From NCBI RefSeq assembly GCF_000963695.1, contig NZ_LAJX01000047.1:1-44648 (forward strand): a stretch of DNA of 44,648 nucleotides, given 5' to 3'. The position numbers were made by a program, and so were the translations under genes. A model generated the notes under the pieces. That model had not been told where the DNA came from, made no database searches, and saw nothing but the letters and a program-made list of their open reading frames with translations. Origin of the DNA: Methylocucumis oryzae (GTDB lineage Bacteria > Pseudomonadota > Gammaproteobacteria > Methylococcales > Methylomonadaceae). Of the stretch, positions 16,274-22,406 are shown piece after piece; position 1 is the stretch's first letter; every line of letters starts with the position of its first letter.

Positions 16274-17101
16274 TTAAAACAGCATATTTCTTGTTTCTGA
16301 TTCCCAATTTTTAAGTTGTTGGTAAAGGCTAGTTGTTACAAAATCCTCGAGTCGATATGCCAAGCGCAAAGCTTTGCCAACATCTGTATCGCTTATACCC
16401 TTATTTGTTTTTGCTTTCACATGCAAAGAGAAAGCGCATTCAAAGTCATGACCTTGGCATAAATTATAGTCATCGGTAATAGCCATAATTTTCTCGGAGA
16501 TGTCACGCTCTGTTGGAATATCTGTTTTATTTGGCGAACAACTAGCGATGATTTCAATGCACTTCATCTGATTTGGAATCGCTAAATTCTCAGCATCATA
16601 AAAATTCGTAATTCCAGCTTTAAAATTTAACTCCAACTGTTGAGAATCATTCAGCCAGCGTAGGCCACCTAGAAATCTAAGGGATAGTAATAAATCAGAG
16701 CGTAGTTGAGCAAAATCAGTACGTTTTTCAGGTAAATATTCCGCAACGACTTGTTGCCAAGCTTTATCGCAAGCAACCATCATCATTTCTGCATCATGCG
16801 CGTCAGTTAAAAATAACCGATCAATGATTTCTTGTTGTCCATTCAAGTGTAAAAAGTCGGCATCTCGTATGCCAATGATTCTAGGCGATTTGATAATTAG
16901 CGCTGCCATTGCCTTTCGTAAAGCCGTTACACCACCATGAACTCTTTCGATTACAGTGTTTTTACCGGTAATCAGGTTGCCGTAAAGCTTTTGATCCGTT
17001 TCTCCTTCGACAAGAACCCATAGTTTGTGTTTGGTATTAGGGTGATGTAACTGTAAGGTGATACTTCCGATAACATCCGACTCATTGAGATAGCGCTGCA
17101 T
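16274..17101 (-). CDS. DUF4435 TOPRIM-like protein, probable nuclease effector of a PARIS/OLD-like defence pair
   Basis: The 275-residue protein carries the DUF4435 pattern: VEGETD (31-36), GIRDADF (77-83) and TDAHDAEMMM (99-108). VEGETD plus DxD is the acidic metal-binding arrangement of TOPRIM folds as found in OLD nucleases. DUF4435 proteins are the AriB effector of the PARIS anti-phage system and are typically encoded right after an AAA/ABC-type ATPase (AriA). Here the ATPase gene lies directly upstream on the same strand and overlaps by 20 bases, indicating coupled translation. The region looks more AT-rich than the elongation operon. The defence role is inferred from domain pairing and order; whether it belongs to PARIS proper needs a profile search. 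Intact frame. Confidence 0.8.
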   Translation of the reverse strand: MQRYLNESDVIGSITLQLHHPNTKHKLWVLVEGETDQKLYGNLITGKNTVIERVHGGVTALRKAMAALIIKSPRIIGIRDADFLHLNGQQEIIDRLFLTDAHDAEMMMVACDKAWQQVVAEYLPEKRTDFAQLRSDLLLSLRFLGGLRWLNDSQQLELNFKAGITNFYDAENLAIPNQMKCIEIIASCSPNKTDIPTERDISEKIMAITDDYNLCQGHDFECAFSLHVKAKTNKGISDTDVGKALRLAYRLEDFVTTSLYQQLKNWESETRNMLF

Positions 17102-18409
17102 CCTGCAACTCCTCCAAGTCTACTGTTAACTCCCAGTGCTCATTTACTATTTGCGGGGAGTGAGTTGCAATAATGATATTAATTTTTTGTAATTCGATTA
17201 TTTTGAACAAATCATCTAAAAATTGCTTTTGCCAAACTACGTGCAAAGATAATTCAGGTTCATCAATTAATACTAAAGTACCTGGCCTCACTTTAAATAA
17301 AAGCTCATACAAAATAACGACTTCTTGTTGTTCGCCCGAAGATAAATCGGTTAATGCGAGTTCTGTACCTTGATGAGTACTGAATTTAAAGCCGTGGTCT
17401 TTTGAAATGTCAATGCGTTTAAAGGTAAATCTTCGTTCATTTAATATTTCAGTAAACGCTTTTAGCTTTTCAAGTAAACTTGAGAAAACGGCTAATTTAC
17501 GCTCGGTATCTTCGATATAAACACAAAGAGCTTTGGCATTTTCTTTCTTATAGGTCGGATGGTTGTCCTCTTTTACGTCAGAAAGGCCAAATTCACTCAG
17601 AGCTTTTTGAATGTCTTTAACTTTATCAAAACGTTGAGTAAATTCTTGTTCAGATATATCGAGTTGCTGATCAAAAAGCCTACGGGGAAAGCTGCTATCA
17701 AGTTCTTGATTAATTTGTGAAGATTTAGCTAGGGTTTCTTTTATGTTTTCACGTAACTCCTTGGCATACTCTTCAATAGTTTGACTAAAGGCACTCACTT
17801 CACCATCTATTTCAGATTCAATAGATGCTAACATGCTCAAATTCTTCCAACTCCTAATCTTGTCATTTGATACTGGGCGCAATAAACGCTGTTCTCGTAT
17901 GAAGTAAATTGAAGGAATTTTAGATTTTGGTAATTCAAGCGCCTCATTTGATTGAAATTCAGTAACAAGCTCAGGATATTGAAATCCAATATGTTCCAAA
18001 AGTGAATTTTGGTCGAAAGCTTTATCCGAAACTATATCAATCCAGGTATTTTTTTCCAAACTGTCGAAATGGGCCTTTCCGCAAAATCTTTTCAATTGCT
18101 TTTTTGCTAAGAGAAAATTTGCCATGCCATTGCCCGGAATCTGATCCATTAATTTTTTAACTGTATGTCTTTGCTGGATTCTTTTTCTATCGTAGCAGTA
18201 TCATGTCCATCAAACGTTAAAATAATTTTTGAAAACAGAATCTTAGTAAAAAAATAACCATTTTGGCTAGCAAAAGCCTCCAATATTTTCAATATCGTAG
18301 TTTTTCCGTAGCCATTAGGCCCTGTCAAAATGGTTATCCCTTGTTTTTTAAGCTCTATGTTGTAATCAAAAATATCAAAGAGCTTTTCAATTTTTATGCT
18401 TGTTAACAT
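17082..18409 (-). CDS. AAA/ABC-type ATPase, probable sensor partner of DUF4435 protein (frame broken near 18155)
   Basis: The first piece (86 codons from ATG 18409) has SIKIEKLFDIFDYNIEL and the Walker A GPNGYGKTT (30-38). The second (355 codons) has SIYFIREQRLLRP, a long charged helical middle, the ABC signature LSSGEQQE (269-276), Walker B LVLIDEPELSLH (292-303) and the switch histidine in IIIATHSP. All catalytic parts of one ATPase are thus split over two frames. Adding one base to the T6 run at 18153-18158 (plus strand) fuses them into 442 residues through QLKKLMDQIPGNG. Otherwise a TAATG overlap would make two coupled genes. I favour one gene, since each half alone lacks an ATPase core. 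Such ATPases hold and trigger the DUF4435 effector in PARIS-type systems. Confidence 0.8.
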
Positions 18410-18496
18410 ATTGATTTCTTAAGATTACTAGTCGCAAGGAGATAACCATCTTTTAGAGCGCAATACCTTACCGCTATTGCGCCATTAGAAATTTGT

Positions 18497-19279
18497 TTAC
18501 ATAGCCGCTAAGCCAGCGATGTTATAGCCACAGTCAACATAAGTGATTTCGCCAGTCACACCTGAAGCTAAATCAGAACATAAGAACGCGGCGACATTGC
18601 CGACTTCTTCTATCGTGACATTGCGTTTTAACGGAGCGCTATCAGCGGCTTTGCTTAACATGGTTTTAAAATTGTTAATGCCAGAGGCGGCTAGGGTTCT
18701 AATAGGGCCGGCTGAAATGGCATTGACGCGCGTACCTTCTTCACCTAACGCAACGGCCATATAACGCACGTTGGCTTCTAAACTGGCTTTAGCAACACCC
18801 ATGACGTTGTAATTAGGAATAACCCGCTCTGCACCTAAATAGGTTAAGGTTAATAAAGAGCCATTACGACCTGCCATCATTTGACGTCCCGCTTTTGCTA
18901 AGGCAGTAAAGCTGTAGGAGCTAATATCATGAGCGATACGGAAATTATCCCGCGTTGTAGCACTAATAAAATCACCATCTAAGGCTTCGCGGGGTGCGAA
19001 GGCTACCGAGTGCACGATACCATCTAAGCCATCCCAATGCTCAGCCAATACTTTAAACACATTATCAATGTGCTCGTCACTGCTGACATCGCACTCGATG
19101 GTAATATTAGATTCGCATTCGGCGGCCATTTCGACGACGCGGCTTTGTAATTTTTCATTTTGAAAGGTGAAGGCCAGTTCAGCGCCTTCTCTGTACATGG
19201 CTTGAGCAATTCCCCAAGCGATAGAACGGTTGCTGGCTAAGCCAACGATTAATACTCTTTTACCCTGCATGAAACCCAT
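18497..19279 (-). CDS. fabI: Enoyl-[acyl-carrier-protein] reductase (NADH) FabI
   Basis: Last reductive step of fatty-acid chain elongation, in the cytoplasm. The 260-residue protein begins [20 protein letters not shown] (the nucleotide-binding GxxxxxSI motif of FabI) and contains [15 protein letters not shown], the catalytic YNVMGVAK (Tyr and Lys of the YxxMxxxK motif preceded by the usual upstream Tyr in [12 protein letters not shown]) and [13 protein letters not shown]. Length matches E. coli FabI (262). The frame is intact. The start has a CGGGGA upstream at suitable distance. It is divergent from the ABC transporter operon and is a likely core gene bordering the inserted ATPase/DUF4435 segment. 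Confidence 0.96.
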
Positions 19280-19468: not shown

Positions 19469-21319
19469 ATGCAGAAACAACTCACCGTACATGATCGGAT
19501 TATTTATAGTTTATTGTTTATATTAGTTTTGTTATTGATTTTGACCATGTATCAAATCGATAGGCAATGGCTAAAGCTATCAGATATAGAGACAACGCTA
19601 TCCGAGCAAGCGAAAGCGATGCGAGAGTTAAACGCTGCGTTGGCTAATGCGCCGTTACGCACGAATGCGGCTAAAACATCACAGAACAGCGTTGCGCCTG
19701 CGTTTAAACGCGCTTACCAAGCCAGTCAATTACCAGACTATGCCCAAGGCGATTGGAGTGTTGATGCGTTTGGTACTAATATAAAAACCATTACGCCGCT
19801 GGTATCGTCGGATGCTTACGCCGCCAATGTGCAAGGTTTTGTATTAGAAAGTTTAATTAATCGCGATCCCGAAACCTTAGCTTGGGAAGGATTGATTGCT
19901 AAGTCGTGGCAAGTCAGTGCTGATGGCTTAACTATTCGCTTTCAATTACGCGAAGATGTGCATTTTTCCGATGGCGTGCCGTTAACCGCTGATGATGTCG
20001 TCTTTACTTACGATTTTATTATGACCGAGGCGATTCAAGCGCCTCGCGAACGGGCTTATTTGGAAAAAATCAACAGCGTTAAGGCCAATGGTCAATACGA
20101 AGTCGTTTTCACGTTTAAAGAGCCTTATTTTGAAGCGTTGTCATTAGCCGGTGGCATGAATATTTTTGGCTAAGCACTTTTTATAGCGACTATTTAACCA
20201 AACCACAGCAGTTTAATGGGTCTAAAGGTTTGTTATTAGGCACAGGTCCTTATCGCTTAACGGATGCGAAACTGTGGACGCCTGATAAAGGCAATATCGA
20301 ACTGGTGCGTAACGAGCGTTATTGGGGGGATGTGCAACCACCGTACAACCGCATTTTATGGAAAATTATTCAAAACGATAGCGCGAGACTCACCACGTTT
20401 CGCAATGGCGGTATCGATTCGTATTCAGCGCGAGCCGTGGAGTACGAAGCGCTAAAAACGGATAAGCAACTCTTAGATAAAAGCCAGCATTTTGAATATA
20501 TGCCACCTGTAGTCGGTTATAGTTATATTGCTTGGAATCAGCAACGTGCAGGCAAGCCTACTCGTTTTGCCGATGCTAAGGTAAGACAAGCGATGACTTA
20601 TTTAACCGATGTTAGCCGCATCATTAAAGACATTTATTTGGCTTATGCCGAACCCGCCGTCAGTCCGTTTAGCCCGATTAGTAAACAACATGACGCTCAG
20701 TTAATGCCATATTCTTACGATTTAGCAAAAGCAAAAACCTTGTTAAAACAAGCGGGTTACGAAGATAAGAACAACGACGGCGTGTTAGAAGACAACGCCG
20801 GGCTACCGTTTGAATTTAAGTTAACGTATTTTGAAGCGAATGAAGACACTAAGCGCTTAGTGTTACTGCTAAAGGATTTATATGCTAAAGCCGGTATAAA
20901 AATGATTCCTACGCCGCAGGAATGGCCTGTCATGTTAGAAAATATCGATAAAAAAAGATTTTGATGCGATTACCTTAGGCTGGACTAGTGGCATAGAAAC
21001 CGATTTATATCAAATGTTTCATAGCTCGCAAGCGATAAGTAAAGGCGATAATTTCATTAATTATAAAAATCCTGAGCTTGATAAATTAATTGAGCAAGCC
21101 CGCGCTACCGTTGATGAAGGCAAGCGTATGCCATTGTGGCGTCAAGCCGAACGCGTGTTGTATCAAGACCAGCCTTATACGTTTTTAATGCGGCGCAAGA
21201 GTTTGTTATTCATTGATAACCGGATTAAAAACTTAACCATGACTAAATTAGGACTTAATTTTGGCTCATTGCCGCTAGAAAACTATGTGCCGTTAGCGTC
21301 GCAAAAATATAGCCAATAG
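19469..21319 (+). CDS. ABC transporter solute-binding protein, family 5 peptide type (three frameshifts as read)
   Basis: Periplasmic substrate-binding component for a peptide-type ABC importer. The N-terminus is unusual: MQKQLTVHDRIIYSLLFILV is a hydrophobic anchor followed by a coiled-coil-like stretch (DIETTLSEQAKAMRELNAAL) rather than a cleavable signal. Family-5 hallmarks follow: LIAKSWQVSADGLTIRFQLR, DGVPLTADDVVFTYDF, LLLGTGPYRLTDAKLW, GNIELVRNERYWGD. Frame breaks, all one extra base: T5 at 20163-20167, T5 at 20178-20182 (together giving NILAKHFYSDYLTKPQQ) and A7 at 20950-20956 (IDKKDFDAITLGW). The corrected protein is 615 residues. First gene of a four-gene operon with two permeases and a fused double ATPase, an arrangement like yejABEF; the substrate is not known. 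Confidence 0.88.
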
Positions 21320-21331
21320 CGGAGCCTTGTT

Positions 21332-22406
21332 ATGTTGACGTATTTATTACGCCGAGTGTTGTTAATGGTACCGACGTTGTTGGGCATTACCATTGTGGTG
21401 TTTACCGTCATGGCTATGTCTCCGGGTGGTATTAGCGCACAATCGCTAATCGGTGGTATGGATATGAAACCCCAGGAGAAACAAGCCTTATTGGATTATT
21501 ACAATAAGCGTTATGGCTTAGACCAACCTGCGCCTATGCAATATTTGCGTTGGTTGAATAATGTGTCACCGGTAGGGTTTGTCAATCATGAGCACGGTGA
21601 ACGCGAGTTTTCTTTTACCAAAGGCATGGATTTAGGCACTAGTTTTCAATACGGTAGACCGGTAGCGGATATTTTGGCCGAACGCATACCCATCACGTTG
21701 TTGCTGAATGTGCTAACCATTCCGGTGACGTATGTGATTGCGATTTTAGTCGGCGTGTATTCGGCGAAACATCGTGGCGGCTCGTTTGACGTAGCTTCGG
21801 GTATTGCGATGTTAGCGCTATGGTCTATTCCGACGATGTTAGCGGGTGTGTTATTACTGGGCTTTTTCGCAAACGTACAGTATTTTAATTGGTTTCCGAC
21901 GGCGGGGATTAGCAGCCGGGAAGCGTTAGATATGCCTTTTTTACCGCATTGGGATGAGCATGGCTTTGTGCGAGGCTTTTTGCTAGACAGGCTTTGGCAT
22001 TTGATTTTACCGGTGTTGTGTTTGTCTTATGGTAGCTTTGCCGCATTGGCAAAAATTAACTCGTACCGCTGTGTTAGAAAACTTATCGGCCGATTATGCC
22101 CGTACTGCCAGAGCTAAAGGCGTCGCAGAAGATGATGTGTTATGGCGGCATGTGTTTCGCAATAGTTTATTGCCATTAATTACTGTGTCGGCAGGTTTGC
22201 TACCTGGACTATTAGCCGGTTCGCTGATTGTTGAAAATATTTTTAGTATTAATGGCATGGGACAGCTAGCCGTAGAAGCCGTTAAAGGCCGGGACCGTGA
22301 ATTAGTATTATCGATTACCTGGGTGAGCGGCTTTTTAACCTTAGTGGGTTATTTAATCGCCGATTTTTGTTACACCTTAGCCGATCCAAGGGTGACGTAT
22401 GACTAA
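21332..22406 (+). CDS. Peptide-type ABC transporter permease, DppB/YejB class (one frameshift as read)
   Basis: Inner-membrane permease. The start MLTYLLRRVLLMVPTLLGIT is the classic DppB/OppB N-terminus. Helices follow, with PITLLLNVLTIPVTYVIAIL and the EAA-loop region ENLSADYARTARAKGVAEDD. The frame breaks in A5 at 22051-22055; with four A the text reads AALAKLTRTAVLENLSADY and continues to the stop, 357 residues in all. The stop overlaps the start of the second permease (ATG 22399) by 8 bases. It starts 12 bases after the binding-protein stop, so it is clearly in the same operon. Confidence 0.92.

Follow-up and report, generated by a model that had tools for sequence, protein, structure and literature searches.

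A probable PARIS-like ATPase and TOPRIM gene pair in the methanotroph Methylocucumis oryzae

The occurrence of an ATPase gene followed by a gene for a TOPRIM/DUF4435-like protein next to fabI in Methylocucumis oryzae raises the question of whether this bacterium carries a phage defense module of the PARIS type, as an initial annotation of the DNA had proposed. The window that we analyzed is a stretch of 44,648 nucleotides (contig NZ_LAJX01000047.1) from an assembly of 4.58 Mb in 389 contigs, and its genome is congeneric with genome G010. Our analyses indicate that the pair, from a methanotroph of the order Methylococcales, is probably an abortive-infection module of two genes that is PARIS-like and belongs to a lineage other than that of the solved E. 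coli PARIS. What carries this reading is the gene pair itself, the order and overlap of its genes, its motifs, its kinship with the family, its patchy occurrence at varied sites, and its relatives in a phage and a prophage. This kind of system is already known, and the window pair adds a defined PARIS-like lineage to it. Pairs of an ATPase and a DUF4435 protein occur in 5.2% of genomes according to the available text of PMC9122126, and the accessible portion of PMC12839542 points to an earlier account of operons of this sort. Our literature search on PARIS with Methylococcales returned nothing naming Methylococcales among the matches listed, and we do not claim the lineage as unreported.

The cassette and its ATPase gene, broken in this assembly

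All cassette features described here lie on the reverse strand. The ATPase starts 87 bases downstream of fabI (18497-19279, reverse strand) and is followed by a 275-amino-acid open reading frame (ORF) at 16274-17101, the AriB-type TOPRIM/DUF4435-like protein, for which we propose the role of an RNase effector by analogy with E. coli AriB. The 20-base overlap between the two genes reported in the initial annotation is borne out by the ORF coordinates (17082-17101). With starts chosen to match the aligned start in the window, the two genes overlap by 1 to 23 bases in ten relatives; the pair at locus L005 has none. Between fabI and the cassette, the minimum-energy fold of a 91-base stretch holds a stem-loop (18457-18483, reverse strand) lacking a long T run, which is a possible end of the fabI transcript.

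A defense-island setting had also been suggested for the pair, and it found no support: when the window's ORF list was inspected by eye, no defense neighbor was recognized and no helicase was seen adjoining the pair. The cassette is absent from all eight congener fabI regions examined, where the sequence beyond fabI is variable, and a clear empty site was not found among these eight, two of whose contigs stop within ~0.4 kb. BREX PglZ had no match in the pair's own genome. N6_Mtase had eight matches there, so the genome could encode restriction systems open to inhibition by phages.

The ATPase is spread over pieces. An 86-amino-acid N-terminal ORF (18149-18409; AAA_15, 35.7 bits), 65 to 70% identical to three orthologues, contains the Walker A motif GPNGYGKTT (18296-18322). 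A 355-amino-acid C-terminal ORF (17082-18149; AAA_21, 57.3 bits; AAA_15, 44.7 bits), 60 to 72% identical to ten orthologues, contains the ABC signature LSSGEQQ (17325-17345) and the Walker B motif TLVLIDEPELSLH (17241-17279). The pieces pass the cut-off of AAA_15 (32 bits) or AAA_21 (27 bits), and the ATPases of three intact relatives score 68.8 to 82.5 bits in Pfam. The Walker A, signature, and Walker B motifs claimed in the initial annotation are present, but the single gene that it assumed is split over two ORFs and three frames. Compared with intact orthologue ATPases (L003, L066, and L070), the window sequence matches in frame -1 at 18409-18158 and in frame -3 at about 18146-17085 with all three, and in frame -2 at about 18153-18040 with two (L003, E = 9.7e-6; L066, E = 0.005); the L070 query gave no tblastn match in frame -2. 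With these orthologues as tblastn queries, the middle stretch at 18055-18153 is found in this third frame only. In the orthologue alignment, the first frame break falls at a six-base homopolymer (18153-18158) and the second at a seven-base homopolymer (18049-18055).

An ATPase in three frames could signify a gene that has truly decayed and a locus that no longer works in this strain. We compared five other window genes with those of congeners and found that two are broken as well: relative to a congener's intact genes, yejA (19469-21319) lies in three frames and yejB (21332-22406) in two, yet both still align at 69 to 91% identity, as assembly errors predict. A single frame covers each of rlpA, fabI, and the part of mltB that was matched. 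Because the ATPase breaks lie at homopolymers and yejA and yejB are broken too, assembly indels are the likely cause of the frame breaks. The AriB frame is intact with its motifs kept, and a dead remnant is, in our judgment, unlikely. In nine other genomes that we fetched, the ATPase and AriB genes are each complete, with AriB proteins 47 to 59% identical to that of the window.

Family assignment of the two proteins

The PARIS-type reading drew support from both genes. The sole PADLOC match of the 275-amino-acid protein is AriB (26.6 bits, E = 1.4e-6), which is also the sole PADLOC match of its relatives L004, L002, and L005 (53.7, 45.9, and 35.9 bits). The solved E. coli AriB (L042, stretches of which are identical to 8ux9) scores 34.7 bits with the same model, and 17 of 19 aligned members match it at E 0.001. 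The label DUF4435, given in the initial annotation, applies by kinship but not by direct match. The window copy had no match to Pfam DUF4435 at E 1, whereas the 27-bit cut-off of this family is passed by four of the nine complete orthologues (L004, 45.3 bits; L002, 32.9 bits; L067; and L070). The other five were unmatched at E 0.05. L005, which is more distant, reached 21.1 bits; AriB proteins from a phage (L036) and a prophage (L037) pass at 87.3 and 89.0 bits. Since the solved E. coli AriB (L042:4846-5772) was itself unmatched at E 0.05 in the present Pfam copy, the DUF4435 threshold is not decisive, failing it is no proof of non-membership, and Pfam-based PARIS counts may miss their own type member. 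The Pfam rule in the available text of PMC9122126 would miss the window protein, which suggests that counting PARIS in this way overlooks such members.

The acidic motifs noted initially were recovered as VEGETD (16994-17011) and RDAD (16856-16867), followed by TDAHDAE (16787-16807) and GHD (16445-16453). Ten residues are invariant across the alignment of 19 proteins, which includes E. coli AriB: E32, G33, D36, D80 of RDAD, F83, T99, H102, and E105 of TDAHDAE, and G217 and H218 of GHD. E32, in VEGETD, aligns with the catalytic E26 of E. coli AriB (numbering checked); in the accessible part of PMC12409363, cleavage fragments are absent with the E26A variant. The same text describes K60 and K64 of E. 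coli AriB as needed for defense and models them as holding the anticodon loop. The insert with these two lysines, a feature of the studied E. coli enzyme that stands outside the PARIS family definition, is absent or unlike in the 20 rows of the window's super-clade aligned to L041 and L042.

The alignment of the window-clade AriB proteins to the solved type rests on similarity that is only just detectable. BLAST with the window AriB gave a match of only 41 residues to the Pseudoalteromonas AriB L041 (E = 1.7); L042 was unmatched, with E values allowed up to 10. A profile of the 20 super-clade rows matched five DUF4435 proteins (L009, L010, L011, L013, and L014), which themselves exceed the Pfam cut-off at 70.7 to 105.4 bits, with probability 96 and E = 4.7e-9. 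Against L006 and L007 it gave 26.8 and 0.0007, and against the solved-type AriB (two rows) the match was very weak (E = 0.011, probability 3.7). PDB searches with the window AriB, A1, the Yersinia phage AriB, and the L074 AriB did not find AriB, and the search with L041 did. AlphaFold models were poor for both the window AriB (pLDDT 65, four-row alignment) and the L004 ATPase (pLDDT 57.6, three-row alignment), and Foldseek with the former returned nothing at E 0.001, so we make no structural claim.

On the ATPase side, the top PDB matches of the intact orthologue L004 are three PARIS AriA proteins (8ux9, 8v45, and 8v46), the best at 8.1e-18, followed by PtuA at 6e-8, with an OLD protein at 6.4e-5. 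AriA was the top PADLOC match of all three full ATPases scanned. The C-terminal window ORF alone matched PtuA (72.4 bits) slightly better than AriA (70.8 bits), and the AriA of L066 is 23% identical to that of the solved E. coli PARIS (L042). These PtuA and OLD matches, along with the missing tRNA-gripping insert in the window clade, would be compatible with a wider OLD/Septu-type defense pair, with a TOPRIM nuclease that is switched on by the ATPase and acts on DNA instead of tRNA; OLD TOPRIM nucleases cleave DNA, as stated in the available text of PMC10568477. The partners and layouts argue otherwise, however. PtuA goes with PtuB, an HNH nuclease (Retron-Eco7; PMC12409363, accessible part), and the window's AriB-type protein matched no HNH family in Pfam or PADLOC; in GajA and Class 1 OLD proteins the two domains sit in a single polypeptide (PMC10568477, available text). 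With AriA also ranking first for full-length ATPases, we regard a DNA-cutting pair of this sort as quite unlikely and continue to favor the PARIS-like assignment.

Distribution, neighborhoods, and descent

Of the 301 genomes of the order, 19 had an AriB match at E 1e-4, and in 11 of these, the window's own among them, the match was strong (E 1e-70 or better). The sample of 398 genomes from the phylum gave 5 with a match at E 1e-4, including two strong ones (the own genome and G352), and a search of genome contigs yielded one Chitinophagales pair at 34%. Searches of plasmids gave nothing at E 1e-5 with the window AriB and 14 records with the L004 AriB; phage searches with each of these two proteins gave only two records, both belonging to one Yersinia phage. 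In viral contigs, 48 stretches fit a pattern for A1, none of which was confirmed.

Eight distinct neighborhoods were counted, the window included (the flanks of L069 are unlabeled). The cassette adjoins prfC at L003, lies between sucD and nadE at L066 and L067, and is found downstream of a GATase (trpG-like) gene at L068 and of TerD genes at L073. At L071, and by its ORFs also at L072, it is near ubiE and an addiction-module antidote; a PLD_Helicase fragment is about 1 kb off at L070, and a type II methyltransferase and restriction enzyme are near it at L074, with one small gene between. PADLOC matched three of eight flanking proteins picked by eye, from two loci. These differing neighborhoods point to a patchy cassette that is not part of one metabolic operon. 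Constant linkage of homologues to such an operon, a prospect raised in the initial annotation, was looked for; the sites varied, and a metabolic-operon gene was rejected. Many neighboring genes are housekeeping genes, and a non-defense OLD protein is known, the archaeal cell-cycle protein Cran1 (PMC12796447, available text), so one could think of a housekeeping ATPase-nuclease pair with no role in defense. The scarcity of strong matches within the order, their different places, and the carriage of related pairs by a phage and a prophage make that very improbable.

The site between sucD and nadE was followed in the genus of G128, where the search with nadE returned 23 loci, spread over 21 of the 23 genomes; of these loci, only G128's shows the cassette. 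Both genes are visible in nine of the 23 loci, with gaps of about 110 to 175 bases in three and about 460 to 1210 in six (those of reversed loci were computed by hand); some gaps hold other small genes, by eye. Varying among congeners in size and small cargo, this gap (L099-L121) is a small chromosomal hotspot. L066 and L067 share the site, yet they are unpaired in the trees and their AriB proteins are 62% identical versus 92% for SucD, which suggests, from sequence comparison, separate arrivals at a favored site.

The trees were built from 35 AriB and 36 AriA rows chosen from the loci fetched, each locus being counted once (L002 is the L003 locus, and L004 is the L066 locus, in G281). The rows omit the partial G244, the cut AriB of G292, several loci from the order and phylum searches, and 13 of 30 DUF4435 loci (L008, L012, L016, L019, L020, L024, L026, L029-L031, and L033-L035). 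The window groups with its orthologues in a clade of 10 AriB rows (99/99) and 11 AriA rows (99/99), within a super-clade of 20 AriB rows (96/98) and 21 AriA rows (100/99) whose members include pairs from plasmids, from a Yersinia phage, and from an E. coli prophage. The phage pair (L036) belongs to the Peduoviridae phage vB_YenM_31.17 and is flanked by CI and integrase, and the prophage pair (L037) lies amid tail genes. In an AU test on 30 AriB rows (six distant rows dropped, L122 added), joining the window clade plus L005 to the solved PARIS was rejected at p = 0.00845, a value obtained with long branches and for a group chosen after the first tree. The deep branching order, with its long branches, is unsure. 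The suggestion that the pair might fall outside known PARIS clades thus holds for the solved E. coli clade, from which the window lineage is separate by these sequence trees, and a PARIS-like lineage is placed in methane-oxidizing bacteria.

Two other lineages came to light in these searches. Four Methylococcales genomes (L008, L009, L011, and L012) carry another pair of ATPase (~310 amino acids) and DUF4435 protein (~337 amino acids) that adjoins a prephenate dehydrogenase and/or aminotransferase gene, with ends overlapping or near-touching (families checked for L009 and L012). An E. coli prophage (L122:2990-5093) harbors a different ATPase and DUF4435 lineage amid tail genes, at a second site besides that of L037; as a further prophage position for the window lineage it was dropped, since it sits in another branch.

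Proposed mechanism and comparison with known systems

In E. coli, AriB is held by a hexamer of AriA and set free by phage proteins such as Ocr, and dimeric AriB nicks tRNALys and other tRNAs (PMC11455837; PMC12409363, accessible part). By analogy, an AriA-type ATPase multimer would keep the AriB-type TOPRIM nuclease inactive in the methanotroph, and binding of a phage protein to the ATPase would free the nuclease. Once free, the nuclease would dimerize and cut host RNA, most likely tRNAs, and cell growth would stop before phage maturation. We infer this sequence of sequestration, trigger, RNA cleavage, and abortive outcome from the E. coli system; the components that this scheme needs are present in the window pair, whose trigger and RNA target may differ. 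A more tentative extension, which could but need not hold, is that this separate PARIS lineage has an effector that, without the tRNA-gripping insert, cuts a different RNA or site, a sensor that answers other phage proteins, and a two-gene cassette that is spreading among methanotrophs and settling between housekeeping genes. With the intact orthologue pairs, one can ask whether members of the family differ in their AriB targets and their triggers.

Septu PtuA, Gabija GajA, and OLD are related ABC ATPases that matched the full ATPases more weakly. In Gabija and in OLD classes 1 and 2, the ATPase and TOPRIM domains share one chain (with a UvrD-like helicase in addition in Gabija), whereas they are separate genes in the window and its orthologues; Septu combines PtuA with the PtuB HNH nuclease, whereas the window's partner matches AriB. 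Membership in Septu or Gabija was rejected for wrong partner or layout. The two-gene ariA-ariB layout is present in the window, where the ATPase is broken, and in its orthologues.

Within PARIS, the distant homologue PARIS-1 of E. coli O42 has anti-phage activity (PMC9122126, available text). The pairs of vB_YenM_31.17 and of the E. coli prophage fall in the window's super-clade in both trees and are similar in size (423 + 292 and 414 + 285 amino acids); they are phage-carried, and their AriB proteins are 25 to 26% identical to the window's. The solved E. coli PARIS (8ux9, L042) resembles the window pair in having an ATPase gene followed by an overlapping TOPRIM gene, in the AriB motif order VEG..D, D, H..E, GH, and in that its AriA is the best solved relative. 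It differs in clade (AU p 0.008), in the K60/K64 insert that the window-clade AriB lacks, and in location: L042, presumably a P4 satellite site, adjoins a phage polarity suppression gene and an integrase, whereas the window cassette lies between housekeeping genes. Standing outside the solved E. coli clade, the window pair is PARIS-like by descent and anatomy and not a close copy.
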